64,000 nt of DNA from an uncultured Bacteroidia bacterium. GTDB lineage: Bacteria > Bacteroidota > Bacteroidia > Bacteroidales > UBA932. Below the pieces are notes generated by a model that made no database searches, was not told the origin of the DNA, and was given only the letters and a program-made list of their open reading frames with translations. Location: assembly GCA_902782225.1 (NCBI GenBank), contig CACZMF010000007.1:1-64000 (forward strand). The letters run 5' to 3'. A program made the position numbers and the translations under genes. Below are positions 47,809 through 64,000 of the stretch, in pieces (position 1 is the stretch's first letter; every line of letters starts with the position of its first letter).

Positions 47809-50800
47809 ATGAAAAGAAAACGGGTAACCATGGCGGCCACTATTCTGGCCATATTGCTATGCTCTTCTTTTTCCGCTTTTGCGCAGATGCCGAAAGTATC
47901 CCTGAACCTTCAGCAAGTGCCCGCAAGACAATTGTTGAAGGCTATTGAGGAGATGTCAGACTACACCTTCGCCTATGTGGACTCGGAGCTCGATCTGGAT
48001 AAAACAGTATCTGTCAAAGCAAACAACAAAGACGTATCCGCCATCCTGGCGGAAGTCTGGCCCGGTGTCAAGGTTACGATGAACGGCAGGCAGCTTGTGT
48101 TGAATCTGCCCCCAAAGCAACAGGCGCAAACCCGGAAGCAAAGCGAGGACGACAGCCCTTTCCGGCGAGTAACCGGCGTGGTGACTGATGATTCAGACCA
48201 GCCGGTTATCGGTGCCGTGGTGATGGTGAATGGCACAAAGAATGCCGCATTGACCAGCGCCACGGGTTATTATGCCCTGGACGACGTCGACGGCCCTGCC
48301 ACTATCACGGTCTCCTGCCTTGGCTACAAGTCAATGGAAGTCGCCATCTCCGAAAAGCAGTCGGAATGCAACATAAGGATAGAGCAGGAACTGATCGCCC
48401 TTGACGACGTCGTGGTGGTGGGATACGCCACCATGAAAAAGCGGGACCTCGTGGGCTCCGTGGATGCCGTCGGCAGTGAGGTGGTGGGCAACCGCGCCAA
48501 CTCCAACCTGCTGCGCTCCCTGCAAGGCGAGATCCCCGGCCTGAACGTCACCATCAGCGACAGCAAGCCCTCACACGAAGGTTCCTACAATGTCAGAGGC
48601 GAGACCTCCGTCGGCGCCGGCGGTGATGCGCTGGTGCTGATCGACGGCGTGGAGGGAAGCCTCAGTTCCGTGAACCCGCAGGATGTGGAAAGCATCTCCG
48701 TGCTGAAAGACGCATCCTCCGCCGCGGTCTATGGTGCCAGGGGCGCTTTCGGCGTGATACTCGTGACCACGAAAGCAGCGCAGAAAGGCCGCCCCGTCAT
48801 CAACTACAGCGGCTCCTACAGCATCAACCGCAGAACAGTCATTCCCGACGGCATCACCGACCCCAATGAATGGCTGGACTGGTGGAAAGCAGCCTACACT
48901 GGCTACTACAACGCCTCCCGTACCCTCCTGAACCACCTGGACTCCAAGGCCCCGTATTCGGAGAACATCTACAATGAAATCATAAGGCGCAAGAACGACC
49001 CGTCGCTTGCCAAAGTGGTGCGGTCCAACGAAGTGCCGGGATTCGGATATGTCTATCTCGACAGCCACGAATGGATGCAGGAGTTCTACAATGACTGGCA
49101 CGGCTCCACGGAACACAACATCTCCGTGTCCGGCGGCAACGAGAACGCAGACTACTATGTGTCCGGCCGCTACTACGGTTCCGATGGCGTTTTCAGGATC
49201 GGCAACGAGAAATACAAAAAATTCAGTATGCGAGCCAAGGGCACCTTGAAGATTCGTCCCTGGCTGACCCTGACCAACAACACGAGCGTCAGCACCAATT
49301 TCTCCCACATTCCCCGCACCCAGTCGGGCCAGTCGCCTTACCGTTACATACAGCACTGCCTCCAGCCGATGACGCCCCTCAAGAACCCTGACGGCACCTG
49401 GACCCCCGCAGCGGGTATCTCCGGCTACGCCGCTTTCGTGGAGGGCAAAAACTACCTGGAGAATGACTACATCTACCTGCGCAACAAGGTAGGACTGGAT
49501 GCCAGCATAATCCGGGACGTGCTCAAACTCCAGGCCGACTACTCCTACAACTACACCGGACGCACGAGGCTGCTGGTCCAGAACCCGGTATCCTATTCCA
49601 AGGAACCTGGCGTCATTCTTTATGAAAGCGACAAGTACGGCGACGGCCTCACCCAGACCACCTACAGGACGGACTACCAGGCGGCGAACATCTATGCGAC
49701 CTGGACCCCGAAATTAGGCGAAAAACATAGTCTCACGACCCTCGTGGGCTACAACGTCGAATGGCGCACCTACAAGACGACGACCGCTGAAAGGGTGGGA
49801 TTCATTTCTGAGAAGCCCTCCTTCGCGCTAATGGAAGGCGAAGCCAGCGTAACCTCAGGCGGCAATGAATGGTCCTACCTGGGAGCATTCTTCCGCGTCA
49901 ACTATTCCTTCCTCGGACGCTTCCTGCTGGAAGTGAGCGGCCGCTATGACGGTTCATCCAAGTTCCCCATCAACAGCCGCTGGGGCTTCTTCCCTTCAGC
50001 ATCATTCGGGTGGCGGCTCTCGGACGAGCCCTGGATGAAGTGGAGCCGCGGCGTGCTCGACAACGCCAAGATAAGGCTATCCGCCGGCTCGATGGGCAAC
50101 GGCAACGTCGACCCTTATAAATACACGTCCACGATGACCATCAAGAAGGCCGAGGACATAGTCATCGACGGTTCCCTGCCGTCCTACACGACCGTGGCCA
50201 GCCTGGTGCCCTCATCCCTGACCTGGGAGACAGCATCCACCTATGACGCCGGTATCGACATAGATATGTTCAAGAACCGCTTCTCCGCCACCTTCGACTA
50301 CTATATCCGCAATACGACCAATATGTACACCACCGGCGTCACCCTGCCCCCGGTGTACGGTGCCTCCGCCCCGAAAGGAAACTACGCTGCGATGCAGACC
50401 AGGGGCTGGGAACTTTCACTCCAGTGGCGCGACCAGTTCCAGATGGGCGGCAAGCCATTCAAGTACAGCATTAAAGGCACTCTCTGGGACAGCCGATCAT
50501 TCATAACCAAGTACGACGGCAACGACGGCAACTCGCTCGGAACAATTTCCAACATCATAGCCGGAGATCCCCAGTACTATGTGGGAATGGAACTCGGCGA
50601 ACTCTGGGGTTACGAAGTGGAAGGCCTGTTCCGGGATTATGAAGACATCGCCACCCACGCCACACAGACCTTCCAGCAGTCTTCCGATAAAGTCACGAGG
50701 CCCGGACAGGTCAAGGTCGCAAACCTCAACGATGACGACGTAATCGACTGTGGCAACCTGACGCTCGCAGACCACGGAGATATGAGGATCGTGGGCAACA

Positions 50801-51387
50801 AGTCCCCGAGATACCGCTACGGCATCAATATGTCTGCAATGTGGAACGGAATCGGGCTCTCCGTATTCCTGCAGGGCGTGGGCAAGAGGGACTGGTATCC
50901 CGGCTCCGACGCCAGTTACTTCTGGGGCAAATACGACAGGCCGTTCCTTTATTTCCTGCCGAAAATCCACGCTATGGACAGCCCTACGATGTGCCAGCTC
51001 TCCGAAGACGGCTCCGAATGCCTCAACCCCGACACCGCCTACTGGCCGAGAATCACCAGCTATCAGTCCAGAGGCACGAACAGCAAGGACCTGCTGCTGG
51101 AAATTCCCAATACCAGATACATACAGAATGCAGCCTACCTGAGAGTCAAGAACATACAGATAGACTACAGTTTCAGTCAGAAAGTCTGCAATGCCATCGG
51201 CGTGTCAGGGCTCAAACTCTTCCTGAACGGTGAAAACCTGTTCACGATCACCCCTATGTGGAAATGGGCCCCGAACATCGACCCTGAAACCGCGGGAAGC
51301 GGAGACTCCGACTACAGCGACGTGATAGACGGAAACTCATACCCGATGATCAAGACCATCACACTCGGAATGAACCTTAAATTCTAA
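47809..51387 (+). CDS. SusC-family TonB-dependent transporter with N-terminal STN domain
   Basis: 1192 aa. Signal peptide to about residue 26; STN domain (about 27-105) as found in transporters that signal through FecR-type anti-sigma factors; CnaB-like carboxypeptidase-regulatory domain (about 120-200; GVVTDDSDQPVIGAVV); plug domain with the SusC signature VVVVGYATMKKRDLVGSVD, LLRSLQGEIPGLNV and DASSAAVYGARGAFGVILV; C-terminal 22-strand barrel ending TLGMNLKF. Imports the ligand presented by SusD. No FecR/ECF pair is adjacent. First gene of the 47.8-64 kb locus; SusD follows after 4 bases. Confidence 0.95.
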   Translation: MKRKRVTMAATILAILLCSSFSAFAQMPKVSLNLQQVPARQLLKAIEEMSDYTFAYVDSELDLDKTVSVKANNKDVSAILAEVWPGVKVTMNGRQLVLNLPPKQQAQTRKQSEDDSPFRRVTGVVTDDSDQPVIGAVVMVNGTKNAALTSATGYYALDDVDGPATITVSCLGYKSMEVAISEKQSECNIRIEQELIALDDVVVVGYATMKKRDLVGSVDAVGSEVVGNRANSNLLRSLQGEIPGLNVTISDSKPSHEGSYNVRGETSVGAGGDALVLIDGVEGSLSSVNPQDVESISVLKDASSAAVYGARGAFGVILVTTKAAQKGRPVINYSGSYSINRRTVIPDGITDPNEWLDWWKAAYTGYYNASRTLLNHLDSKAPYSENIYNEIIRRKNDPSLAKVVRSNEVPGFGYVYLDSHEWMQEFYNDWHGSTEHNISVSGGNENADYYVSGRYYGSDGVFRIGNEKYKKFSMRAKGTLKIRPWLTLTNNTSVSTNFSHIPRTQSGQSPYRYIQHCLQPMTPLKNPDGTWTPAAGISGYAAFVEGKNYLENDYIYLRNKVGLDASIIRDVLKLQADYSYNYTGRTRLLVQNPVSYSKEPGVILYESDKYGDGLTQTTYRTDYQAANIYATWTPKLGEKHSLTTLVGYNVEWRTYKTTTAERVGFISEKPSFALMEGEASVTSGGNEWSYLGAFFRVNYSFLGRFLLEVSGRYDGSSKFPINSRWGFFPSASFGWRLSDEPWMKWSRGVLDNAKIRLSAGSMGNGNVDPYKYTSTMTIKKAEDIVIDGSLPSYTTVASLVPSSLTWETASTYDAGIDIDMFKNRFSATFDYYIRNTTNMYTTGVTLPPVYGASAPKGNYAAMQTRGWELSLQWRDQFQMGGKPFKYSIKGTLWDSRSFITKYDGNDGNSLGTISNIIAGDPQYYVGMELGELWGYEVEGLFRDYEDIATHATQTFQQSSDKVTRPGQVKVANLNDDDVIDCGNLTLADHGDMRIVGNKSPRYRYGINMSAMWNGIGLSVFLQGVGKRDWYPGSDASYFWGKYDRPFLYFLPKIHAMDSPTMCQLSEDGSECLNPDTAYWPRITSYQSRGTNSKDLLLEIPNTRYIQNAAYLRVKNIQIDYSFSQKVCNAIGVSGLKLFLNGENLFTITPMWKWAPNIDPETAGSGDSDYSDVIDGNSYPMIKTITLGMNLKF

Positions 51388-51391
51388 TAAG

Positions 51392-53218
51392 ATGAAGAAA
51401 TCAATCATACTCCCGGCACTTCTTTCCCTGCTTGCCGTTTCCTGCACTGATTTCCTGACCAAGGTCAGCCCCAATGCAATTGAGAGTGAATACTTCTTCA
51501 CCGACGAATCTTCGCTCCAGATCTACACCAACGGTCTCATCCGTTCATACGCAACGGAAATCAAGGATCTCCTGGATGCGGACAAATATGTGGACGCACA
51601 GGCGTGGGACGGGGAATACCTGTTCTTCACCGGCCGCTACGGCGTCTCCGACAACAGTTCCTGGAGCTGGACATCTCTGCGGTCCATAAACTATTTCATA
51701 GAGAATATGGGCGCTGCGGAGACGAGTCCGACCATTATGGCCCACTATGAAGGCGTGGGCCGGTTCTTCAGGGCAATGTTCTACATAGCCAAACTCCAGC
51801 GCTATGGAGCCGTCCCGTGGTACGACCACGTCCTGGACCCCACCGATGAAGCGGAGCTCTACAGGACAAGGGACGACAGGTCCGTGGTTGCCGCCAAGAT
51901 ACTGGAAGACCTGGACTATGCCTGCAAGAACTGCCTTGGCGACGACAAGTACAGGGTCCGCAGCACCAACATCAACAAGTATGTAGCCCTTGGCATCAAG
52001 GCTCGCTTCTGCCTCTACGAAGGCACCTACCGCAAATACCACGAGACCGACCCGTCCAAAGGCACCCCCTGGACCGCCGCCGAAAAGGAGGAAGGCAATA
52101 TGTACCTGCGGGAATGCATTAAGGCCTGCCAAGAGATAATGGACTCCAAGCTCTACTCCCTCACCGACAATGCGGCAAAACGGCAGACCCAGTACAGGGA
52201 TATGTTCACAAACGCGGATGCCTGCGCATACTACACCAATGAGTTCATCTGGGCGAGGGACTATGACGAAGCGTTGAGAGTCAACAACAAGGAATACTCC
52301 ATCAATGACTACCTCAACAACACCGGCCACTACATTTGGGCCCTCAACAGGGACTTTATGCTGACCTACCTCTGCCTTGACGGCACCCCCTTCACAGACA
52401 GATATTCAGGCAAGGACTACTATTCCGCCACCCTGGCCGATGAGATAAAGGACCGCGACTACCGTTTCGCCCAGACAGTCCGCACCCCCGGATTCAAGCG
52501 CGACAACGGCACCAAGGCATACCCGCCCAACCTTGCGTGCGCCAAGACCGGCTACCAGCCCGTGAAATGGCTCACCGACGCCATCAAGGACGAGATTTCC
52601 GACGGTACCTACTCCGACGTCCCCCTCATACGCTATGCGGAGATCCTCCTAAGTTACGCAGAAGCGAAGGCCGAACTCGGCGAATGCACCCAGGAGGTCT
52701 GGGACAAGTCGGTCAAGCTCGTCCGCGAAAGGGCCGGAGTCAAAAGCATATATCCGACCACGGCCGACCCGTACCTCGTGGAATACTTCCTCAAGACAGT
52801 CACGGACCCCGTGATCCTCGAAATACGCCGGGAGCGCGGGACCGAGTTCGTTATGGAAGGCCTCAGGATGCAGGACGTGATGCGCTGGCATATCGGCGAG
52901 CGCCTGATAATGCCCAAGACCGGCATCTGGATTCCCGGAATCGAGCAGAACCTCGACCTTGACGGAGACGGCCAGCCGGACAATTACGTGTCGGCTAAAG
53001 TGGTTGAGAAATCAGGCATCAACGTGCTTGCTATCAACCACAACGGCTCTTCCCTCTCCTCCGCAGGCCACTACCTTTCCGAAGGCGACCACGGCTACAT
53101 CATTGCCTATTCCGCTTTCTGCAGCGGCTACACCTGGTCGGAGAAAAAGTATCTCTACCCCATCCCCTCCGCCGACGTCACGCTCAACGAGGGACTTGGA
53201 CAGAATTATGGTTGGTAA
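51392..53218 (+). CDS. SusD-family surface lipoprotein
   Basis: 608 aa, lipobox AVSC (Cys18). N-terminal SusD_like segment (about 25-215; DFLTKVSPNAI, FRAMFYIAKLQRYGAVPWYD) and C-terminal RagB/SusD part (about 310-608; IRYAEILLSYAEAKAELG, EIRRERGTEFVMEGLRMQDVMRW, YPIPSADVTLN). Forms the lid over the SusC pore and binds the cargo. The cargo cannot be read from sequence. Confidence 0.95.
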   Translation: MKKSIILPALLSLLAVSCTDFLTKVSPNAIESEYFFTDESSLQIYTNGLIRSYATEIKDLLDADKYVDAQAWDGEYLFFTGRYGVSDNSSWSWTSLRSINYFIENMGAAETSPTIMAHYEGVGRFFRAMFYIAKLQRYGAVPWYDHVLDPTDEAELYRTRDDRSVVAAKILEDLDYACKNCLGDDKYRVRSTNINKYVALGIKARFCLYEGTYRKYHETDPSKGTPWTAAEKEEGNMYLRECIKACQEIMDSKLYSLTDNAAKRQTQYRDMFTNADACAYYTNEFIWARDYDEALRVNNKEYSINDYLNNTGHYIWALNRDFMLTYLCLDGTPFTDRYSGKDYYSATLADEIKDRDYRFAQTVRTPGFKRDNGTKAYPPNLACAKTGYQPVKWLTDAIKDEISDGTYSDVPLIRYAEILLSYAEAKAELGECTQEVWDKSVKLVRERAGVKSIYPTTADPYLVEYFLKTVTDPVILEIRRERGTEFVMEGLRMQDVMRWHIGERLIMPKTGIWIPGIEQNLDLDGDGQPDNYVSAKVVEKSGINVLAINHNGSSLSSAGHYLSEGDHGYIIAYSAFCSGYTWSEKKYLYPIPSADVTLNEGLGQNYGW

Positions 53219-53233
53219 AAAACACACCCGAAT

Positions 53234-54991
53234 ATGAAAAAGACTTTTTCAATAATCTGCCTGGGCCTCCTGTTCCTCACAGAATGCCAAAAAGAAGTTG
53301 ATGTGTTTCAAAGGGAATACGACGCCATATCCTGCGACTGCTTCGAGCAGAACATTTCCCAGTATCTCCTCTGCTCCGGAGAATGGACTTCGGAGTGCGA
53401 CCTGGACTGGCTGCGCCTCAATCCCGACAGCGGTTCGGGCAACGGCTCCGAATACCAGGTATATTACATCCAGGTGTCCGGCAATATGGGCGAAGCCAGG
53501 GAGGGGACGTTCTACCTGGTCCACGGCGGGCAGCGTTATCCCGTAGTGGTCCGGCAGGACAAGACCAATTTCGAATTCGGCGAACTGTATATGTCCGGCC
53601 TGCTGAAGCAGAACCAGCCCAGCAACGCCTTCCTCGCCATACCCTACAAGAATGCCACAGGTGCCGAAACTATATCTATCGCCTGTTCGATGAGCGGCGC
53701 CACGGATGGCCTGTCGGTCTCCGGAGGCAATTTCACCCTGACTGCGGGCAATAATTCCATAGTCATTCCCATTGACGGCACCCCGTCCGGAGCTGGCGAA
53801 ATCACCTTCAACGTGAATATCAACGGGAAGCCCCTCAACCCCATAGTGACCACAATCAAGGAGTTCACCAACAAGAAGATAAACGTCTTCCTGAACGGCG
53901 AGGACTGCGGCAGTTGCACTGAGAGCCAGCCCGGCGTGTGGGAACTTACCATCGACGCACCCGCCGTGGGAGAAATCACCATCAAGAACGAAGAGCAGGA
54001 ACTGGGCTTCACTTCCTATTCCGGAGCCGGCGGCCTCGGCACCTGCAAGAATATGAATTCAGCACTGCCCTTCTATAATTTCACGCCCCAGCACACCCGC
54101 TTCTATAAGGTGGACAAGGCCATTGGCGCTCTCCAGCCCATTTCTGAAGGCGGCAACAAGCTATGGCTGAATTTGGACGCCCCCGGCAAGGTGAAAGTGG
54201 CCTACGATGAGACCTACAAGCAGTACGGCTCCTACTATCTGGAACTTGTCAAGGATGACGACCCGACTCTCATCTTTGACGAGCAGTTCGACCTCTTCAC
54301 TTACGGCGGCGACGCTATCAACTACCTTCTGGGCACCATCTACAACGGCACCGCCGAATCTTTTGACGGACTTGAACCGGGTACCAACAACAGCGGAAAA
54401 TGGTCCTCTTCCGGAAGCATCGGGCAGATGTGGGACTATCCCACGCTCAAGGTGAATATCAGGGCGTGCGACGACTATATCAAGAACCGCGGCGTCCAGG
54501 ACTGGGAATTCGTCTATGTCGACGAGCGTCCCGGAGCCATCCAGATGAACAACACCGGCCAGCAGGACAATTATATGATAACGCCCAAATTCTCAAAGAT
54601 TTCCGGCACGCAGAACATAGTCCTGACCCTGGATATCGCCAGGTACTCCTCAACCTCGAAGGCAGACATCCCCGTGACCATACTCGGGGCCGGAAGTTTC
54701 ACCGGCGGCAAAGCCAGTCAGACCGAAGGCCAGGACGCCAACGGCGTGAAGGTGGAAGCAAAGAGCGGCGACCTGGGCAGTCTGAGCGGAACGAAGTACA
54801 ACATCGGGACCGATTACCTGATGACCGCTGGTTCCTCCTACAACGCAAGTATATACAAACCCACTTCAAGGTTCGAATTCTACATTTCCGGAGCGACCTC
54901 CGAGACCCAGATCAAGATTGCTGCGTCTTCAGCATCCGGAGGGAATGCACCCCGGTGCTTCATATATGGAATAAAAGCCACACTGCAATGA
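53234..54991 (+). CDS. Surface lipoprotein with BACON-like N-domain, in the SusE/F position
   Basis: 585 aa, lipobox LTEC (Cys18). Residues about 30-110 resemble a BACON domain (W-------DWLRLNPDSGSGNGS, EGTFYLVHGGQRYPVVVRQ). Further beta domains follow; the C-terminal 200 residues (DEQFDLFTYGGDAINYLLG..., NYMITPKFSKISG) look like a jelly-roll/DUF-type carbohydrate- or peptide-binding domain. Its TGA stop overlaps the next ATG (ATGA). By position a cargo-binding surface protein. Confidence 0.75.
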   Translation: MKKTFSIICLGLLFLTECQKEVDVFQREYDAISCDCFEQNISQYLLCSGEWTSECDLDWLRLNPDSGSGNGSEYQVYYIQVSGNMGEAREGTFYLVHGGQRYPVVVRQDKTNFEFGELYMSGLLKQNQPSNAFLAIPYKNATGAETISIACSMSGATDGLSVSGGNFTLTAGNNSIVIPIDGTPSGAGEITFNVNINGKPLNPIVTTIKEFTNKKINVFLNGEDCGSCTESQPGVWELTIDAPAVGEITIKNEEQELGFTSYSGAGGLGTCKNMNSALPFYNFTPQHTRFYKVDKAIGALQPISEGGNKLWLNLDAPGKVKVAYDETYKQYGSYYLELVKDDDPTLIFDEQFDLFTYGGDAINYLLGTIYNGTAESFDGLEPGTNNSGKWSSSGSIGQMWDYPTLKVNIRACDDYIKNRGVQDWEFVYVDERPGAIQMNNTGQQDNYMITPKFSKISGTQNIVLTLDIARYSSTSKADIPVTILGAGSFTGGKASQTEGQDANGVKVEAKSGDLGSLSGTKYNIGTDYLMTAGSSYNASIYKPTSRFEFYISGATSETQIKIAASSASGGNAPRCFIYGIKATLQ

Positions 54992-56226
54992 AAAACAAAC
55001 TGATTATATTCACCTTGCTGGCCGCCGTCGCCTGCGAGCCCCAAATCGACCCTGACAACGGAGGCAAGAACAACAACAATCCGACCGACACCCGAGGCGC
55101 TTTCGAGGTGGAGGTCGGGAAGCCGCTTCCGCACTGGCAGGAAGGCGTGCTGGATATCCACGCCATCAATACCGGAAGCGGTGAATGCACCTTCTTCATC
55201 CTGCCCGACGGCACCACGATGCTCGTGGACGCAGGCGACCTGTATATGAACAAGAAGTCCAACAGGGTGCCGGTACGTCCCACTTCGGAGTCCATCCCCT
55301 ACAAGACCTACGGTTCTTATATCAAGTACTTTATTCCGAGCGGGCACCCGAAGATCGACTACTTCGTGCTGACCCATTTCCACATTGACCATATGGCCTA
55401 CCTGGGCACCGGGCGCATAAACAACACCGCGGGAAGCTACTGCTATGCCGGCCCTATGGGGCTCTATCAGGACATACAGTTCGCCAAGTCGATCGACAGG
55501 CTTTACCCCGACTATGCGACGAACAGCGAAGACGACGACGCCAACGCCTCGCCTGATTCCAGGAGTATGTTTGCAAACTTCCTGGACTATCAGGCAAGGA
55601 CCTCGGGCCTCACGGCCGAGCGGTTCAAGATCGGCACCGACCAGCAGCTCGCAATGAAATACAACGCCGCCAAGTACCCTTCCTGCAAGGTCTTTGGTTA
55701 TGCCGTCAACGGAAAGGTCTGGGACGGGGCAAAGGAATATGACACCCACGCCCGCTACGAAAACGGCCTGTCCTGCGCCTTCCTACTGAGTTACGGCAAG
55801 TTCGACTATTTCACCAGCGGCGACCTGAACGAGAAGAGCACCTGCACTGCAATCGCCAAATCCATAGGGAAGAACATCGAAGCCATGAAGGCCCACCACC
55901 ATATGTCCAACGAAGCCACCTACGACGTGGAGGCAGAGGCCTACAAGCCCAAGGTCGTGGTCACGCAGAGTTTCTATGCCCTGACGACACAGCCACAGCA
56001 AAGCATCATTCAGAAATATTCAGGAACTCAAGACCTGTATTTCACCAACATAGACCAGAGCATCATCACGGCCCGCTCCGACATCTACGGCGCCTGCAAG
56101 GGCCTCAACGGCCACGTCGTCATCCGTGTTGCGGAAAACGGCGACAAGTTCTGGGTCTATATGCTTGACGACACTGACAAGAAATATAAAGTAAAATCCA
56201 TCAACGGTCCTTATACCTGCGAATAA
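54988..56226 (+). CDS. ComEC-like metallo-beta-lactamase-fold lipoprotein (paralogue 1)
   Basis: 412 aa from the ATG at 54988, overlapping the previous stop; the longer upstream frame is out of register with real coding. Lipobox AVAC (Cys16), Asn-rich spacer, then the MBL fold: INTGSGECTFFILPDGTTML-DAGD (about 60-84), zinc motif HFHIDH (residues 130-135), a later SGDLN acid, and AHHHMSN. The first-strand pattern and HxHxDH are those of the MBL domain of ComEC/COG2333, a phosphodiester-type hydrolase family. It would act at the surface or in the periplasm. About 45-residue N-terminal differences aside, it is closely similar to the next gene. Confidence 0.85.
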   Translation: MKNKLIIFTLLAAVACEPQIDPDNGGKNNNNPTDTRGAFEVEVGKPLPHWQEGVLDIHAINTGSGECTFFILPDGTTMLVDAGDLYMNKKSNRVPVRPTSESIPYKTYGSYIKYFIPSGHPKIDYFVLTHFHIDHMAYLGTGRINNTAGSYCYAGPMGLYQDIQFAKSIDRLYPDYATNSEDDDANASPDSRSMFANFLDYQARTSGLTAERFKIGTDQQLAMKYNAAKYPSCKVFGYAVNGKVWDGAKEYDTHARYENGLSCAFLLSYGKFDYFTSGDLNEKSTCTAIAKSIGKNIEAMKAHHHMSNEATYDVEAEAYKPKVVVTQSFYALTTQPQQSIIQKYSGTQDLYFTNIDQSIITARSDIYGACKGLNGHVVIRVAENGDKFWVYMLDDTDKKYKVKSINGPYTCE

Positions 56227-57384
56227 ATGTCCTTAGTTTTACCATTTGTCCTGACGCTCCTGTCGGTCCTGCAGCCTTCGCCCACATCAGTCGGGGCGAC
56301 CCTGCCGGACTGGCAGGAAGGCATGCTGGACATCCACGCCATAAACACGGGACGCGGAGAATGCACGTTCTTCATTTTCCCGGACGGAACCACGCTCCTC
56401 GTGGACGCCGGCGACTTACATGGCTACAATCCTTCGAAATATGCCATGGTGCCGGCCCGGCCGTCCGGAGATGAGGAACCGTGGAAGGTTTATGCGGACT
56501 ATATCCTGCACTTCCTTCCTGATGGGCACAAGAGCCTGGACTATTTCCTTCTCACACATTTCCATATCGACCATTCCGCCTATATCGGAGAGGGGCGGAC
56601 AATCCATCCCGAAGGGGGCTATGCCCTTGCCGGGCCCATGGGCCTATACTCGATTGTGCCGTTTGATGTGTTGATAGACCGTGCATCTCCCGAGTATCCG
56701 GAGTATAAAGAGAACGCGTCCACCGACCATTATCTCAGATTCGCCAAATACAATGCGGAGCACAACGGGCTTCGCGTCGAGCGTTTTCTCGTGGGCTCCG
56801 ACCGCCAGATCGTTCCAAGATACAGTCCTGAAGCATACCCCTGCTTCAAGGTATTCGGTTACGCGGCCAGCGGTATGGTGTGGAACGGGCGTGAAATAGT
56901 GGACACCAAGGCCCGCTACGAAAACGGGATGTCCTGCGCATTCCTTTTGAGTTACGGCAAATTCGATTATTTCACCAGCGGCGACATGAACCAGAAGAAC
57001 ACCTGCCATGTGACAGCCCGGTCGATTGGAAGGAAGATCGAAGCCATGAAGGCTCATCACCATATGTCTAATGAAGGGACCTACGCCATCGAGGCTGAAG
57101 ATTATCATCCGCAGGTGGTCGTGACGCAAAGCTTCTATGAGCGGGATATACAGCCCCACCAGGATATCATTAAAAAATACTCCGAAAGCCAGGACATGTT
57201 CTTCACCAACCTCCCGATGACTTTTGCGGAGGCGGCTCCGGAAATCTACAAAGACTGCAAATGCACCGGCGGCCACATAGTCATACGCGTCTCTCCTGAG
57301 GGTGAATTCTACGTCTATGTGCTTGACGACACCGACAAAGATTATAAAGTGAAATCAATCTACGGACCATATAAAAGCGAATAG
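56227..57384 (+). CDS. ComEC-like metallo-beta-lactamase-fold secreted protein (paralogue 2)
   Basis: 385 aa; ATG directly follows the TAA of the previous gene. Cleavable-type signal peptide without lipobox Cys, so probably soluble in the periplasm or secreted, unlike paralogue 1. Zinc motif HFHIDH at residues 111-116; LLSYGKFDYFTSGDMN and KAHHHMSNEGTY are shared almost word for word with paralogue 1, as is the end DDTDKDYKVKSIYGPY. Tandem duplication with change of localisation is the simplest explanation. Confidence 0.85.
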   Translation: MSLVLPFVLTLLSVLQPSPTSVGATLPDWQEGMLDIHAINTGRGECTFFIFPDGTTLLVDAGDLHGYNPSKYAMVPARPSGDEEPWKVYADYILHFLPDGHKSLDYFLLTHFHIDHSAYIGEGRTIHPEGGYALAGPMGLYSIVPFDVLIDRASPEYPEYKENASTDHYLRFAKYNAEHNGLRVERFLVGSDRQIVPRYSPEAYPCFKVFGYAASGMVWNGREIVDTKARYENGMSCAFLLSYGKFDYFTSGDMNQKNTCHVTARSIGRKIEAMKAHHHMSNEGTYAIEAEDYHPQVVVTQSFYERDIQPHQDIIKKYSESQDMFFTNLPMTFAEAAPEIYKDCKCTGGHIVIRVSPEGEFYVYVLDDTDKDYKVKSIYGPYKSE

Positions 57385-57386
57385 CA

Positions 57387-58565
57387 ATGAAACGTCTCTA
57401 TCTGATTATCCTGGCCGCTTTCCTGGCCGTTCTCTCCGCTTGCGGGCCGAGCGGCGAAGTGGTGGTGGACAAGAACCTTCCCGCCGGCAACATAGTGTTC
57501 GAGCGGATGGTCGGCGACACAGTCTATGTGCATCAGGAGCTCAGGGGCTCCAAGAAGGCCTGGTTCTACTGGGCATTCCGCGTGACCGGAGCACAGGGGA
57601 AGAAACTCACTTTCGTGTTCACGAAGAGTTTCGCCATCTGCGAGCGCGGCCCTGTCGTTTCCCTGGACAAGGGCAAGAGCTATGATTATCTTGCCGAAGA
57701 AGGAGCCACCAAGTTCCAGTTCACCTATGCCTTCCCTAAGGACGCAAAGGAGGTCTGGTTCTACGAATGCCATCCCTACACTCCTGAAATGTGGTATTCA
57801 TTCATCAATGCTCCCCACAAAGGACAATATGAGACCGGAGTCCTGTGCAAGAGTCCCAAGGGCAGGGACGTTCCTTTCTTCAGGATCATGCCGAAGAAAT
57901 CTGCCCCGAAACTCTCCGTGGTGGTCAGCTGCCGCCACCACTGCTCGGAAGCCCCTGCCGGATACGTAGTCGAAGGCATCACCGCCGCTTTCCTGGAAGA
58001 CAGTGAACTTGGCCAGTGGCTCAGGGACAACATAGAACTGCACGTCGTTCCCTTCGTGGATATGGACGGCGCCGTGGAGGGCGACCAGGGCAAATGGAGG
58101 CTCCCGCACGACCACAACAGGGATTACACCGAATTCCGCTATCCCGAAACAGCCGCCCTGGCCAGCCTCATGGCCGAGATCCAGCCGGACATTTACCTGG
58201 ACTGCCACAATCCCAAGCTTTATAAGTACAACGACAATTACATATATACTCCGTACCGTGAGAACCCGAATCCCAAGGAGTTCGTATTCTCCAGCCTGCT
58301 TGAAAAATATCAGGAAGGCGGACTTAACTACCGGACGTCTGACAACCTGCCGTTCGGGACGAGCTGGAATTCCTCCAGCAACTACCAGGACGGTCTGAAC
58401 GCAACACAATGGGTATATGCCAACATCCAGGACATTAAAGTCGCCCGCACTATTGAATTCCCGTTTGCCTATTCCAACGGCGCGCTTGTCTATCCCGGCA
58501 AGTTACGCCAGTTCGGCCACGGAATAGCCAGGACCCTGAAAGCTTTCGCCCAAGGAGAAGAATAA
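57387..58565 (+). CDS. M14-type zinc carboxypeptidase-like lipoprotein
   Basis: 392 aa, lipobox LSAC (Cys19). N-terminal beta domain (about 25-165) as in the CCP/AGBL group, then the carboxypeptidase core: zinc ligands His185 and Glu188 in RHHCSEA, DMDGAV and NRDY (Asn244-Arg245 substrate-binding), third zinc ligand His274 in LDCH, and catalytic Glu357 in RTIEFPFA. All catalytic residues of M14 are present, so it should trim C-terminal amino acids or related amides. Starts 2 bases after the MBL gene. Confidence 0.82.
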   Translation: MKRLYLIILAAFLAVLSACGPSGEVVVDKNLPAGNIVFERMVGDTVYVHQELRGSKKAWFYWAFRVTGAQGKKLTFVFTKSFAICERGPVVSLDKGKSYDYLAEEGATKFQFTYAFPKDAKEVWFYECHPYTPEMWYSFINAPHKGQYETGVLCKSPKGRDVPFFRIMPKKSAPKLSVVVSCRHHCSEAPAGYVVEGITAAFLEDSELGQWLRDNIELHVVPFVDMDGAVEGDQGKWRLPHDHNRDYTEFRYPETAALASLMAEIQPDIYLDCHNPKLYKYNDNYIYTPYRENPNPKEFVFSSLLEKYQEGGLNYRTSDNLPFGTSWNSSSNYQDGLNATQWVYANIQDIKVARTIEFPFAYSNGALVYPGKLRQFGHGIARTLKAFAQGEE

Positions 58566-58583
58566 CAATTAAAACATATCATT

Positions 58584-58715
58584 ATGATAAAACAGTTAAT
58601 AGCTTATTTGCCCCCACGCTGCGGACAGGCAAAGTGGGAGGAAGAGCAGATTCTTTGCTCTTCTGATATGGTTGAGGCGGAGGATTTCAACAGTTTAACG
58701 GAATATGAATGGTAG
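58584..58715 (+). CDS. 43-aa peptide of the recurring small family (copy 2)
   Basis: ATG 58584, stop TAG at 58713-58715, 43 residues, exactly as long as the peptide at 729. Y-PPRC near residue 8-13 (same PPRC as copy 1), central LCSSD, acidic C-terminus ending EYEW. Lies 18 bases after the carboxypeptidase gene and 4 bases before the next lipoprotein start, inside the operon. No signal peptide. Function unknown. Confidence 0.7.
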   Translation: MIKQLIAYLPPRCGQAKWEEEQILCSSDMVEAEDFNSLTEYEW

Positions 58716-58719
58716 CCTT

Positions 58720-61122
58720 ATGAAAAGATCAGCATTATTTATCGCTGCAGCTGTGACTTTGATACTGACTGCGGCCTGCGCAAAAGAAGCCGTTCTCGAA
58801 CCCGTTCCTTCCCGGGATGGTATGAAGGCCATTGAATTCACGGTCCAGCTGGAAGATGCAGGCACTAAAGCCTGGCTCGACGGCCTCAGCGTCCGATGGA
58901 GCAATGGAGAAAAGGTTGCCGTCTTCGACGGGATCAAGTCCGAGCCCAATGAATTCACCGTCTGGAACGCCAGCGGCAATACCGCTACAATAAGCGGAAC
59001 CGTGTCTGACGGCGCGACTGATTTTTGCGCCGTGTATCCTTTCAGCGCAGCAAAGAGCCGCACAGAGACCGGCGTAAACATAAGCCTGAGCCAGTACCAG
59101 GAGGTTCCTGCCGGCAGGAATGTGGCTCCGGACGCACTCATTTCCGTTGCCAAGTCATCAGGAACTTCATTTTTGTTCAGGAATGTCGTTTCACTTGTGG
59201 CATTCGACATCAACTCGGACAACGTCCGTAGCGTCACCTTCTATGGAAATGGTGAAGAGCTGATCACCGGAGCGGCTTCCGTGGACTTGGGCGGCAGCGA
59301 CCCTGCCTCGACGGCAACCGGGTCCTCCTATGTATCCGTGTCCCCTGAGAGCGGCAGCACTTTCAGCCAGGGCAGGTATTATGCTACGGTCCTGCCTGCC
59401 GAATTAAACAGCGGCGTGACCTTCGCAGTCACCACCGACAGCGGAAAATTCATACGCACGAGCAGCAAAAAGGCCGTGCTTCCCATCAACGGCGGCGTTT
59501 CTTTCGGCAGTATGGGCTCCGGAACGGAACTTCCTATGTCGATAGGCAGCAAGGCTGAGCTCCAGACCTGGGCTGAAAACATCACCGCCTACGTCAGGGG
59601 CGACGTCGTCAAGCTCACGGCCGACATCGACTGGGGAGGCGACGAATGGGCTCCCCTCCCCGGACGTTGCAGCTTTGACGGCCAGGGCCACAGCATCTAC
59701 AATTTCGTAATCCACACCTCCAAGCATCCCGACATCGACCGCTTCGGCATCTTCCAGACCCTAAGCGACGACAACGCGATCGTGAACCTGAAGCTCGGAT
59801 GCACCCCGTCCGGAGAATATGACGGAGTCAGCGCCATCACCATCGATTCTGCCGCAGACAGTTATTATGTCGGACCTCTTGCCGGTATTATCAAGAACAA
59901 CAAAGGCAGCGACAAAGTGCTTGTATCCGATGTCTGGTCTTATGTGCCCGTGACAATGGAATTGCCTGCAGCCGCTACTATGGGACTCCGTGCAGGCGGT
60001 ATCATTGGTTGTGTCACGACCGGCGAAGCTGCCGTCATCTCCGGATGCCGGAACTACGGCGACGTGAAAAACGCCAGCGGCGTGAAAATGTCCGGAAGTA
60101 TGTATCTCGGCGGCATTGTCGGGCAGCTCACCAACGCAAACTCCACAGTTGAGAACTGCTCCAACTATGCCGAAATCAACCTTTCCTCGAAAGCCAACGG
60201 TCTGATCAGCACCTCTTTTGCCGGCGGCATCGTGGGACGTATCGGTTCCGTTGACGGCATTACCATCGACGGATGCCACAACGAAGGTAAAGTCACTGCA
60301 GGCATAAACATCAAGGTGGCACATTACATCGGCGGCATCGTCGGAATGGATCACCAGCCTACGGAAGGCAGCGCCTATAATGTCGTGATCAGCGAGTGCA
60401 CCAATGCCGGAGAAGTTGGCGCCGGATCCCAGAGCAAATCCGGTTATTATGGCGGAATCATAGGCTGCACGTTGTCCAGGACGCTCATCACCGACTGCGA
60501 CAATCTTGCGACCGGCATCATATTCAAAAAGAACAACCATACGGCAGAATCAGCTTATGGCGGAATCATCGGAAAGGCTTCGGGATGCGAAGGTGCCCTC
60601 GTTGCAAGTTGCACCAACGCCGCAGACATCACTGAAAGCGGAAACGTGACCAACGGCACAGAAGTGTACCACGCCTTCGGCGGCATCGCCGGAATCGGCA
60701 ATATAGACATCCTCAATTGCTCCAACTCAGGCGCCATCACGGTCTCTTACACTCTGAACACCACCCTGCACTGCGCAGGTGGCATTGCCGGCCTGCACGA
60801 AGGTTATCAAATCAACGGATGCTCCAACACCGGTGCAATCAGCACTACCCTCAACTGCCCTACCGGCGGACTTATCGGCCTTCAGCTGGACTCTTCCATA
60901 GCCACCGGAGAAGGATGCTCCGTCAACTGCGACATCACTTCCGGCCAGGATTCCACCGGCGGTATGCTGGTGGGTGTGTACCAGGGCTCATCTTCACTCA
61001 CGATAGGCAGTGCAGCACGCCCCATCAACGTGGCCGGCACCATCAACGGAGCTGCGGCAAGCCAGAGCAACCTCTGCGGCAGCGCCAGCACCAGCCAGCC
61101 CCATTTCAATGTAAATCTTTAA
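58720..61122 (+). CDS. Large surface lipoprotein: fimbrillin-like N-domain plus GLUG-type repeats (cassette 1)
   Basis: 800 aa from the ATG at 58720, four bases after the peptide stop; the ATG at 58705 would overlap the peptide gene and add five residues ahead of the signal. Lipobox TAAC. N-terminal half: fimbrillin-like domain (about 30-265; FCAVYPFSAA). From about 280 on: right-handed beta-helix with GLUG-like units, e.g. GGIIGCVTTGEAAVISGC-NYG, YLGGIVGQLTNANSTVENCSN, GGIVGRIGSVDGITIDGCHN. GLUG repeats occur in large adhesins. Likely surface binding. Confidence 0.78.
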   Translation: MKRSALFIAAAVTLILTAACAKEAVLEPVPSRDGMKAIEFTVQLEDAGTKAWLDGLSVRWSNGEKVAVFDGIKSEPNEFTVWNASGNTATISGTVSDGATDFCAVYPFSAAKSRTETGVNISLSQYQEVPAGRNVAPDALISVAKSSGTSFLFRNVVSLVAFDINSDNVRSVTFYGNGEELITGAASVDLGGSDPASTATGSSYVSVSPESGSTFSQGRYYATVLPAELNSGVTFAVTTDSGKFIRTSSKKAVLPINGGVSFGSMGSGTELPMSIGSKAELQTWAENITAYVRGDVVKLTADIDWGGDEWAPLPGRCSFDGQGHSIYNFVIHTSKHPDIDRFGIFQTLSDDNAIVNLKLGCTPSGEYDGVSAITIDSAADSYYVGPLAGIIKNNKGSDKVLVSDVWSYVPVTMELPAAATMGLRAGGIIGCVTTGEAAVISGCRNYGDVKNASGVKMSGSMYLGGIVGQLTNANSTVENCSNYAEINLSSKANGLISTSFAGGIVGRIGSVDGITIDGCHNEGKVTAGINIKVAHYIGGIVGMDHQPTEGSAYNVVISECTNAGEVGAGSQSKSGYYGGIIGCTLSRTLITDCDNLATGIIFKKNNHTAESAYGGIIGKASGCEGALVASCTNAADITESGNVTNGTEVYHAFGGIAGIGNIDILNCSNSGAITVSYTLNTTLHCAGGIAGLHEGYQINGCSNTGAISTTLNCPTGGLIGLQLDSSIATGEGCSVNCDITSGQDSTGGMLVGVYQGSSSLTIGSAARPINVAGTINGAAASQSNLCGSASTSQPHFNVNL

Positions 61123-61134
61123 AGCAAAAACGAT

Positions 61135-61272
61135 ATGAACATCAAAAAACAACCGACCTACATCCAGCCGCTTGTGAATATAATCACCATACAGGCCGGC
61201 TACATCGTGTGTAATTCCCCTGGCCCCAACAACATTGCCAATGTGGGTGAAGATGATTATGGAACATATTAA
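61135..61272 (+). CDS. 45-aa peptide of the recurring small family (copy 3)
   Basis: ATG 61135, stop TAA at 61270-61272. TY-QP near residue 8-12, central IVCNSPG, acidic aromatic C-terminus (GEDDYGTY). More diverged than copies 1 and 2 but with the same size, the same Cys-x-Ser centre and the same place, 12 bases before a lipoprotein gene. Function unknown. Confidence 0.6.
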   Translation: MNIKKQPTYIQPLVNIITIQAGYIVCNSPGPNNIANVGEDDYGTY

Positions 61273-61284
61273 TCCAAAGAAGCC

Positions 61285-63795
61285 ATGAGAAGAATTACTA
61301 TCATACTGATGTCGATCGCCGCACTGGCCATCGCATCCTCCTGCAACAAGAACATCAACCCGGAACCCCCCGGAGACGGACTGGTCTACAAGACCATCCA
61401 TCTTTCCGCATCCGAGACTCTCACGAATAAAGCCGCCTTCGGTGAAAAAGAAGGCACATCATATCCCATACTCTGGTCTTCTGAAGACAAGGTGATCATC
61501 TGCGTCAACAATGATCCCGATCTCACCCAGGAGCTCTCCGTCACTCCTACTGATGGCGGAAAGTCCGCAGAATTCGGGGCACGCACTCTGGCCCTTCCCA
61601 AGTCAGGTGAAATCACCATCCGCGTGACCACCAACACCACTATAGCCTCCGGTGGCACGGCGGCAACGGTGAAATACAAACCGAATGTGGGAGAATCTCA
61701 AGCCCCCCAGCCGGCTTCCTGTGACCCGGAATCCATTATTTTGTTCGCAAAAGAGACTTATTCCAGCGCAGCAGTAGTTCCTGACAAAATAGAGATGAGT
61801 TTCTCACACGCTACCGCGTACGGCCTTTTGAACATAAGCGGTATCGACCTTGGCGGCGAGACCGTGAAGTTCGTGGAGCTTCAGGCAATGTCGCCTGACA
61901 TCAGGATTGCAGGCGACGTGACGATCGACGGCAACGGCGTTCTCTCTCCCGGAAGCCACACCTCATTGACGATGAGGGGGATAAGCGATCTGAGCAACCC
62001 CATCTGGTTTGCAATCGCCCCATCCCAGTTTAACACGGCATCTGCCCTTGCAATCCACGTGGTCACATCTGCAGACCGCCATTTCGAGAAAATTCTTGAT
62101 TGCTCGTCGAATCCCCTTAAATTCCAGGCCGGCCGAATCAGCAAGTTCGGCGTCAATTTCAGCGGGATAGAGCCGGAAGCAAGACAGGTTAAGACTATAC
62201 GAGACTTGGTTCTGCTCAAGAATGCTTTGCAAAATAATGATTATGCTTATTGGATGAATTCCAACAAAGAGATTAAGCTTGCCAACGACATCAACTATAA
62301 CAATGAGGAGGTTAAAGGAAATGCCACAACGCTTCACGAAGGTGTTACATTCAACGGACAGAACTATGCCATAAAAAATGCTGATATAAGTGCTACCATT
62401 TTCAAAATTGTAAAAGGCACAGTCAAGAATCTAAAGATTGAAGGAGGCACCAATTCCACGTATTTATTCAATACAATTGAAGGTTCTCTTGATGGATTGG
62501 AAATCAGCGGCCTTACCTCAAATGCATCTCTAATCAATACCATTTCAAGTACTGGCACAGCTGAGAATCTTTCGATAGAAGGAGGTGAGAATTCAGATTA
62601 TTTATTCAACACAATTGAAGGCTCTCTTGATGGCTTGACAATCAGCGGCCTTACTTCCTCAAAATCTCTTCTCAATACAATTGCGAGCACTGGCACTGTC
62701 AAGAATCTGACAGTAGACAACACCTCGGAATATACTTGTCCCTGGTCTGGAAACAACATGGGTTACGTGACTCTCACAAATCATGGATTAATAGAAGATT
62801 GTGAAGTGGCTGCAACGATTAATGTTGGAGATCCTGAACGCGGTTCATTCAATTTCGGCGTCTTCTCGCCTAAGTGCATAGACGGACGTTTTGTCAGGTG
62901 TAAGAATAATGGTACCGTAACCTGCTCAACAACAACTACGATATCTACAGGGTGCAGTCTTGGGGGAATTGTCGGTGTTATAGAGAGCACTCAGGATAAT
63001 TCTGTTTATATACTTGAGAATTGTGGCAATGGAGAAAACGGGTCTGTGTCATTAACTGTAAACACTAGTGAAGGCAGTCGCATTTGTTGTGTTGGCGGAG
63101 TCGCGGGGGGCAATTATAAAGGTGGCATTTCCGACGTTACCGGACGATGGCTGGAAGAATCTTTACCCAGTCATGGGGTTATTTATGAATGCTATAATGA
63201 GGGAAATGTAGAACTAAACTACAATTGTCCTAATAGCCTTTCAAAATCAGACACTAAAGGTTCCCCAGGCACAGCTGCCGGCGGTGTTATTGGAACAACT
63301 ATAAACGATCTGAGCGGATGCTGGAATGAAGGATCAGTTACAGCTACGTTTGGGACATCATCCAGTAATGCTGTCATTGCGCCAAAAATCGGTGGCGTTG
63401 TGGGTGATGCTCATAATAAAGTCATTGGTTGCATTAACAAAGCCAAAGCATCAATATCCGTTTCAGGTCGAGTAAGAAATTATTATACAGCCTTATATCA
63501 TGGCGGGGGAACATATTACTTAGCTTGTATTGGAGGGGTTTGCGGAGCAGTAGGTTGCGGAGGATATGACCCAGACGGCAATGTTTTTGATAATGATGCA
63601 GCTATCGCCAACTCTACTTCAGCCGGTTCCAGAATTCAGGATTGCGATAATTATTCTACAAGTATTGTCACTGCTCTTACTTATAATAATAATAGTACCC
63701 CTCAAATCGGTGCTGTTTGTGGCTGGACGTCAGCAACTAATTCAGGTTGTAATGACTTTGCTAATACGGGCCTAACGGCCGTCGGAGGGATATGA
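61285..63795 (+). CDS. Large surface lipoprotein: fimbrillin-like N-domain plus GLUG-type repeats (cassette 2), mosaic
   Basis: 836 aa, lipobox ASSC (Cys16). N-terminal domain (about 25-295) is fimbrillin-like and GC-rich in codon use. From about residue 302 (near 62190) the DNA turns AT-rich up to the stop; this part has a 46-aa exact-period tandem repeat (62428-62703) and GLUG units such as GGIVGVIESTQDN, GGVAGGNYKGG, GGVVGDAHNK. The frame ends at TGA 63793-63795 and then continues, in the same frame, into a metallo-beta-lactamase domain. Looks like a gene assembled from two sources. Confidence 0.72.
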   Translation: MRRITIILMSIAALAIASSCNKNINPEPPGDGLVYKTIHLSASETLTNKAAFGEKEGTSYPILWSSEDKVIICVNNDPDLTQELSVTPTDGGKSAEFGARTLALPKSGEITIRVTTNTTIASGGTAATVKYKPNVGESQAPQPASCDPESIILFAKETYSSAAVVPDKIEMSFSHATAYGLLNISGIDLGGETVKFVELQAMSPDIRIAGDVTIDGNGVLSPGSHTSLTMRGISDLSNPIWFAIAPSQFNTASALAIHVVTSADRHFEKILDCSSNPLKFQAGRISKFGVNFSGIEPEARQVKTIRDLVLLKNALQNNDYAYWMNSNKEIKLANDINYNNEEVKGNATTLHEGVTFNGQNYAIKNADISATIFKIVKGTVKNLKIEGGTNSTYLFNTIEGSLDGLEISGLTSNASLINTISSTGTAENLSIEGGENSDYLFNTIEGSLDGLTISGLTSSKSLLNTIASTGTVKNLTVDNTSEYTCPWSGNNMGYVTLTNHGLIEDCEVAATINVGDPERGSFNFGVFSPKCIDGRFVRCKNNGTVTCSTTTTISTGCSLGGIVGVIESTQDNSVYILENCGNGENGSVSLTVNTSEGSRICCVGGVAGGNYKGGISDVTGRWLEESLPSHGVIYECYNEGNVELNYNCPNSLSKSDTKGSPGTAAGGVIGTTINDLSGCWNEGSVTATFGTSSSNAVIAPKIGGVVGDAHNKVIGCINKAKASISVSGRVRNYYTALYHGGGTYYLACIGGVCGAVGCGGYDPDGNVFDNDAAIANSTSAGSRIQDCDNYSTSIVTALTYNNNSTPQIGAVCGWTSATNSGCNDFANTGLTAVGGI
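62428..62703 (+). repeat. Two tandem 138-bp (46-aa) coding repeats
   Basis: Units 62428-62565 and 62566-62703, each coding for a segment with YLFNTIEGSLDGL and ISGLTS; a partial third unit starts at 62704. Period is exactly 138 bases. Confidence 0.9.
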
Positions 63796-64000
63796 AGAGA
63801 TAATGCTGTAGCCTATGACGAAGCGTCAGTGGGAGCCCCCCTGCCCTTGTGGCAGGAGGGAGTCCTTGACATCCATGCGATAAGTACCGGAAGGGGAGAA
63901 TGTTTTTATTACATTTTCCCCGACGGTACCACCATGATGGTGGATGCCGGGGACTTGTACGGACATTCCAACAAGTACACCCAAGTTGACTCAAAACCCA
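63796..64000 (+). pseudogene. Third ComEC-like MBL paralogue, start missing, cut by the window edge
   Basis: Immediately after the TGA at 63793-63795 the same frame encodes a sequence opening with GAPLPLWQEGVLDIHAI and including STGRGEC, IFPDGTTMMVDAGD, matching residues about 45-85 of the MBL proteins at 54988 and 56227. No ATG with a signal peptide exists upstream in this frame; ATGs in other frames stop at once. Either a start such as GTG 63829 gives a signal-less protein, or this is a remnant joined to the lipoprotein gene, or the TGA is a point mutation in a fusion. The zinc motif would lie beyond 64000. Confidence 0.55.

Follow-up and report, generated by a model that had tools for sequence, protein, structure and literature searches.

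A SusCD-type operon of gut Bacteroidales with predicted Pce-like phosphodiesterases and a conserved in-frame UGA ahead of the last of them

The 64,000-nucleotide stretch of DNA analysed here (the window, C7:1-64000; contig CACZMF010000007.1 of assembly GCA_902782225.1) belongs to the 2.58 Mb genome of an uncultured gut Bacteroidales bacterium of the UBA932 lineage. From position 47809 to 64000 it holds an operon of the order SusC-SusD-BACON-MBL-MBL-M14-peptide-GLUG-peptide-GLUG-MBL, which extends to contig position 64959 and in which MBL denotes a metallo-β-lactamase-fold protein (MBL1, MBL2 and MBL3, in that order). Our favoured reading, which we hold to be probable, is that this is a SusCD uptake operon with Pce-like MBL phosphodiesterases as its main enzymes, and with a cargo that most likely contains glycerol-phosphate-type phosphodiesters. 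The reading draws on the gene content of the operon, its recurrence in three genomes, the predicted fold and the motifs of the MBLs, their genus-wide link to SusCD, and the selection acting on MBL3, which lies behind an in-frame UGA that the initial annotation of this DNA had overlooked.

The operon opens with a gene for a SusC/RagA TonB-dependent outer-membrane transporter with a carboxypeptidase-regulatory-like domain (47809..51387; TIGR04056, 766 bits), followed directly, after a gap of 4 bp, by one for a SusD-like surface lipoprotein (51392..53218; PF07980, 140 bits). The SusC named in the initial annotation was thereby recovered, while the STN domain ascribed to it gave a weak, sub-threshold match in the Pfam scan (17.9 bits against a cut-off of 28.4). 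A BACON-domain lipoprotein, probably a surface binding protein, comes next (53234..54991; PF13004, 29.1 bits, cut-off 25); relatives of it occur in sister loci, and its end overlaps the start of MBL1 (54988) by 4 bp. All operon genes lie on the + strand, and neighbours either overlap slightly or are separated by 0 to 18 bases; genes, order and spacing were as first annotated. No glycoside hydrolase, lyase or carbohydrate esterase was found among the nine locus proteins scanned against Pfam and NCBIfam, so that the operon does not qualify as a classical polysaccharide utilisation locus (PUL). Nor was any glycoside hydrolase, lyase or sulfatase seen beyond the window, where glycoside hydrolases would have counted against the initial reading, among open reading frames (ORFs) of at least 150 amino acids read by eye, without a family scan, over contig positions 64000-80000.

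MBL1 (54988..56226) has a lipoprotein-type N-terminus, MBL2 (56227..57384) an N-terminal signal-like segment without a lipobox Cys, and MBL3 (63796..64000, on to contig position 64959) no signal peptide; signal peptides and lipoboxes were called by eye throughout. MBL2 shares 58% identity with MBL1, and MBL3 51%. None of the three scored above the cut-off of a curated Pfam or NCBIfam family: MBL1 gave a Lactamase_B_2 match of 14.1 bits against 27, MBL2 and MBL3 had no Pfam match, and one MBL relative in the same genome did match PF00753, the general Lactamase_B family, at 25.8 bits (cut-off 22.7). All three carry the HxHxDH motif reported in the initial annotation, as does Pce. MBL1 was assigned to the Pce/ComEC type by alignments and a profile match to Pce, and MBL2 by Foldseek with an AlphaFold2 model built from 18 rows (predicted local distance difference test score, pLDDT, 89.9). 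In this structure comparison, which had been proposed at the outset, the ComEC MBL domain 9ic4 came first among PDB entries (E 1.7e-12; TM 0.79 by target) and the phosphorylcholine esterase Pce ranked next (2bib, 4.7e-12; 1wra, 1.4e-11). When a sequence profile of 18 MBLs was compared with solved structures, the strongest match was to Pce/CbpE (1wra, E 3.3e-7), and that to ComEC was weaker (9ic4, E 9.5e-4). With Pce/CbpE (1wra, 2bib) the MBLs have in common the fold, HxHxDH, and an aligned later Asp and HHH motif, at an identity of 14-15% in structural alignment. They differ in that they often occur in tandem or as lipoprotein fusions within SusCD operons, and Pfam and NCBIfam scans found in them no domain of choline-binding repeats, a feature of Pce/CbpE. 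The putative metal residues H111, H113, D115, H116, D253, H278, H279 and H350 (MBL2 numbering) were each retained in 43-44 of 45 domain sequences from the MBL loci, a set without exact duplicates in which near-duplicates remain, as does one gene or more that two overlapping stretches both contribute. By homology, the MBLs most resemble phosphodiesterases, and it is on this basis that their catalysis is predicted.

The best fold match to MBL2, the C-terminal ComEC domain, raises the alternative that the MBLs are extracellular nucleases and that SusCD imports oligonucleotides for their phosphate, carbon or nitrogen. That domain is described as a nuclease in PMC8579336, and PMC6499787, in its account of SusCD loci with phosphodiesterases, proposes nucleic acids as their target. 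In addition, an MBL-SusCD cluster in the window genome lies near a protein that joins a SASA esterase domain, at its N-terminus, to an endonuclease/exonuclease/phosphatase domain at its C-terminus (L027 666-2906, contig C9). We nevertheless consider nucleic-acid scavenging unlikely. Pce beats ComEC in the profile comparison, and the operon MBLs retain the motif II His residues, their HxHxDH being that of Pce, whereas ComEC, according to PMC8579336, differs from Pce at one motif II His (an Asp instead) and at the motif III His. The MBLs lack the membrane channel of ComEC: only the C-terminal MBL part of TIGR00361 aligned with MBL1 and MBL2 (12.6 and 17.3 bits, cut-off 190), and the ComEC channel-domain match of this genome sits elsewhere, on contig C5. 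Several partner genes of related MBLs encode glycerophosphodiester phosphodiesterases (GDPDs) or other glycerol-phosphate proteins, and no nucleotidase was recognised among the scanned partners, most partners being unscanned. The initial annotation had proposed a peptide-, nucleic-acid- or phosphodiester-containing cargo. Of these three, the phosphodiester polymer is the best fit. A nucleic acid is made less likely by a motif II of the Pce and not the ComEC kind and by the several partners that concern glycerol phosphate, and peptide is suggested by the M14 protein alone.

Profile searches, in which the window genome was counted throughout, show the MBLs to be common in the genus. With a three-row profile, 11 of 149 genomes of the bacterial family matched. 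With the 18-row profile, matches were found in at least 123 of 300 genomes of the genus and at least 8 of 393 genomes of the order, both lower bounds since up to 6 (genus) or 4 (order) candidates were scored per genome; a likely phosphodiesterase family of this extent, often found beside SusCD, is hardly detected by curated models. The window genome has 12 MBL copies, nine of which have a SusD within 12 kb, and the remaining three share one 26 kb contig on which SusD was not found. The complete operon, including M14, was seen in three genomes, namely in the window and in the loci L006 and L007. The MBL-M14-SusCD order, which the initial annotation had suggested looking for elsewhere, therefore recurs, and the idea that it is unique to the window genome was rejected. 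A DNA search of 400 genomes of the genus (two candidates scored in each) gave matches in five, those to the MBL3 region being long in the same three genomes only and short and partial in the other two. From a fourth genome comes L005, a fragment of 3.6 kb that covers MBL1 and some of MBL2.

Fifty-seven MBL loci, chosen from the better-scoring MBL matches and not at random, were annotated by phmmer with the locus proteins as queries. SusC or SusD was present in 41 of them and absent from 16, some of which lie at contig ends. The loci contained 66 same-strand MBL runs, with SusC in 35, SusD in 34 and an FAD-dependent oxidoreductase in 20, and loci with two or three MBLs were common. The oxidoreductase (PF12831 in the scanned members; for example in L096, L097, L105, L113 and L117) is a frequent and unexplained partner. 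Among the partners compared with Pfam or NCBIfam, GDPD genes were found in L008 and L010 and, by an NCBIfam match below cut-off, in L100. One locus, L097, combined genes for a glycerol-1-phosphate-dehydrogenase-like protein, a GlpT-like transporter and a HAD-IIA phosphatase; a further GlpT-like gene occurred in L114, and a glycerol-3-phosphate-dehydrogenase-like gene in L115, with a relative in L130 (blastp). A calcineurin-like phosphoesterase was present in L108, with blastp-linked, unscanned proteins in L132, L133 and L137. Across 19 MBL-bearing genomes, selected for holding MBLs and with lengths rounded, 9 of 122 GDPD genes were no more than 5 kb away from an MBL, where 3.0 would be expected (P 0.004 by simulation).

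Several observations weigh against phosphodiester uptake as we read it. No SusC was present in 31 of the 66 runs, and among the five loci from outside the bacterial family (L100-L104) SusC/SusD occurred only in L100. The NCBIfam scores of the glycerol-1-phosphate-dehydrogenase-, GlpT-, glycerol-3-phosphate-dehydrogenase- and GDPD-like proteins all fall below curated cut-offs, and the window operon itself holds none of these glycerol-phosphate partners. The GDPD excess shrinks when the distance is widened to 10 kb (9 against 4.7 expected, P 0.045), and the P values are too favourable because four of the nine, G209/G219 and G365/G406, look pairwise like the same locus in related genomes. For the motif III His of Pce, no aligned counterpart was placed in the MBLs, and we know of no activity for any member of the MBL family. 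A 13-protein sulfatase cluster, one scanned member of which also has a GH27-like domain, was represented in 7 of the 57 loci, and a GH3 cluster in 2. Because sulfatases and GH3 occur in sister loci and most unmatched neighbours were unscanned, some of these loci may target sulfated or ordinary glycans; the absence of glycoside hydrolases initially described holds for the window operon, not for all of its relatives.

The same sulfatases, GH27-like domain and GH3 proteins would suit a scheme in which the MBLs, as esterases or phosphodiesterases, have an accessory part and strip decorations from the cargo of an ordinary glycan PUL, the backbone being cut by glycosidases encoded elsewhere in the genome; PMC6499787 notes that SusCD may work with remote carbohydrate-active enzyme (CAZyme) genes. 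However, the frequency of loci with two or three MBLs, together with the 12 copies in the window genome, exceeds what an accessory role suggests, and the window operon has no recognised glycosidase. We regard this scheme as quite improbable.

In the phosphodiester uptake route that we favour, for which catalysis, substrate, protein location and readthrough are predicted, the cargo would be held at the surface by the BACON and GLUG lipoproteins and imported by SusC and SusD. Its phosphodiester bonds would be cut by MBL1, as a lipoprotein, and by MBL2, probably in the periplasm, and MBL3 probably reaches the surface attached to the second GLUG lipoprotein, as its C-terminal portion, via readthrough of a single UGA. 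The cargo is most likely a glycerol-phosphate-type polymer or conjugate such as teichoic acid, a glycerophosphate-decorated glycan or phospholipid headgroups, and in the window version of the locus M14 may trim a terminal amino acid or an amide-linked group. Among the products of the window operon, none was recognised as a phosphomonoesterase.

The M14 zinc carboxypeptidase-like protein (57387..58565; PF00246, 43.5 bits, above cut-off), a lipoprotein by eye, has the HxxE and His zinc ligands of its family. It had been credited with all catalytic residues: HxxE (185/188), Asn-Arg (244/245) and His274 do align with solved M14 carboxypeptidases, while for the catalytic Glu there is a candidate, Glu357, which lies outside the aligned region. 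Its closest structures are the bacterial 4b6z (E 9.5e-9), 3l2n and 4a37, which we take to be M14 enzymes of the cytosolic-carboxypeptidase (CCP) type. HxxE, Asn-Arg and His are common to bacterial CCP-type carboxypeptidases and the operon protein, which differs from them in being a lipoprotein. A structure model built from three near-identical rows reached a pLDDT of 32.2. Close relatives were found in 3 of the 19 MBL-bearing genomes, and there only in the three copies of the operon.

The second GLUG gene (GLUG2, adhesin-like lipoprotein; 61285..63795) terminates in a UGA (63793..63795, + strand) that splits it from MBL3 in one frame, and in the window, L006 and L007 alike exactly one UGA separates the two, as codon 837, 800 and 758 of the GLUG2 frame, respectively. 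UGA-AGA-GAY and most following codons are common to the window and L007, and the UGA of L006 occupies the position of the conserved Trp of PLPxW in other members. In all three copies, the stretch from the UGA to the MBL3 domain is free of ATG codons. The ratio of non-synonymous to synonymous divergence (dN/dS, NG86) of MBL3 was 0.170 between the window and L007 (dS 1.26) and 0.092 between L006 and L007; that of GLUG2 was 0.15-0.18. MBL3 is thus under purifying selection in the two measurable pairs. Synonymous divergence was saturated for MBL1 between L006 and L007 and for MBL3 between the window and L006, where dN/dS is not computable, which detracts from the case. Unbroken lipoprotein-MBL genes encoding 950-985 amino acids occur in six sister loci (L024, L091, L092, L096, L097 and L098). 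In L091 and L092 the fusion ends the operon after adhesin-like lipoproteins, which is the place of GLUG2-MBL3; in L096, L097 and L098 it is placed elsewhere in the operon, and L024 is a broken contig. MBL3 is, we conclude, a translated sequence. The best explanation, albeit an unproven one, is readthrough of the UGA, the simplest of the routes that also supply MBL3 with an export signal.

We tentatively propose that the conserved UGA acts as a translational valve, at which most ribosomes would yield the GLUG lipoprotein and a fraction the same lipoprotein joined to a Pce-like phosphodiesterase; this we think possible rather than probable. Such a valve would determine how much binder the cell surface carries relative to enzyme and would bring regulated stop readthrough into cellular bacterial nutrient uptake, in what would be a large but little-recognised class of SusCD loci that use MBLs on glycerol-phosphate polymers. 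The UGA-split lipoprotein-enzyme gene is a clear test case for stop-codon readthrough in bacterial cell-surface biology.

A serious competitor, which we place a little below an even chance, is that MBL3 is no readthrough product but a cytoplasmic protein made from a rare GTG or TTG start, or a gene decaying after a nonsense mutation. A GTG is present in the window copy and TTGs in L006 and L007, and in the MBLs of L049 and L079, too, GTG or TTG are the only candidate starts downstream of the stop that precedes them. UGA also serves as an ordinary stop within this operon, BACON ending in UGA in all three copies, and general UGA reassignment was rejected on that account. However, the possible starts are found at three separate positions, and of 94 distinct MBL domains 7 have no ATG downstream of the in-frame stop or sequence end before them (MBL3 of the window and of L007, three domains truncated where a contig or stretch ends, and two that have GTG or TTG instead); the L006 MBL3 was not flagged by the ATG script and was read by eye. 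The dN/dS values of 0.09 and 0.17 in the two measurable pairs count against this competitor as well. Moreover, the stop of the window and L007 is not recent, because the UGA and most later codons are shared despite an MBL3 dS of ~1.26, and a recent nonsense mutation in these two copies was rejected on the same evidence. Differences in the 11 codons after the UGA were distributed 3/0/5 by codon position, though their number is small.

Among 131 MBL matches in the 19 genomes, the one with an internal stop was that of the L006 record, at its UGA. Folding of the 100 nt of RNA from the UGA gave z scores of -1.75 (window), -3.34 (L007) and -4.22 (L006), and of 0.46 for a stretch around the window UGA; this was not counted as a readthrough signal because the stems probably reflect, for the most part, conserved codons of the MBL. 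A broad scan for ORF pairs that share a frame and are separated by a single stop returned mainly what we judged to be shadow frames and, through a filter on composition, did not list MBL3 itself. ARAGORN found no tRNA-Trp in the examined sequences longer than 5 kb; a UGA-reading tRNA-Trp is treated in PMC13092985.

The locus had initially been put forward as a possible undescribed uptake system, which does not stand at the level of the concept: SusCD loci with phosphodiesterases are already described, in PMC6499787 and PMC8115612, and what differs here is the enzyme family. The former reports SusC/D loci without CAZymes and with PF00149/PF01663 phosphodiesterases, which resemble the window locus as a concept, SusCD being aimed at a phosphodiester cargo; the operon MBLs match neither of these families. 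The latter describes PusCD, SusCD-like loci with phosphodiesterases in Flavobacterium that are induced by phosphate depletion. Like the window locus, PusCD combines a SusCD-like pair with phosphodiesterases (predicted ones in the window) instead of glycosidases, but its enzymes, in the account given there, include calcineurin-like and PhoA-like families where the window has Pce-like MBLs. The window locus is further distinguished by its gut Bacteroidales host and by nearby extracytoplasmic-function (ECF)-sigma-like and FecR-like regulators. No description of MBL-armed SusCD loci was found in the searched portion of the openly licensed PMC literature. The MBL-SusCD combination is a testable candidate for the way in which such gut bacteria exploit phosphate-linked polymers, those of Gram-positive cell walls or of membrane lipids for instance.

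On the 3' side of MBL3, the - strand carries PD-(D/E)XK-like, FecR-like and ECF-sigma-like genes (all by eye), followed by housekeeping genes. The PD-(D/E)XK-like protein (C7:65058-66002, equal to L004 5058-6002) is encoded between the operon and the ECF/FecR-like genes; a relative also adjoins the operon in L007, and none lies between MBL3 and FecR in L006.

Within the operon, the first GLUG gene encodes an adhesin-like lipoprotein (GLUG1, 58705..61122, alternative start 58720; PF07581, 33.8 bits). Two GLUG lipoproteins had been annotated, and the domain was found by Pfam in GLUG1 but not in GLUG2. Each is preceded by a short peptide gene on the + strand, encoding 43 amino acids ahead of GLUG1 (58584..58715) and 45 ahead of GLUG2 (61135..61272), and both are kept in L006 and L007. 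Six such peptides compared with Pfam and NCBIfam gave no family above cut-off. They belong to a family of 40-55 amino acids with Y..P, then LC.[SA]S and an acidic tail that often ends in Trp, encoded directly before GLUG/adhesin-like lipoprotein genes. Members also lie upstream of lipoprotein genes in L006, L009, L011, L023, L024, L091, L092, L096, L097, L122, L127 and L129. The pattern, which was composed after examples had been seen, preceded 15 of 29 GLUG/adhesin-like genes (two of the 15 being the same peptide in overlapping loci), compared with 0 of 235 SusC, SusD, BACON, LP_b, MBL and FAD-dependent oxidoreductase genes and 1 of 275 others.

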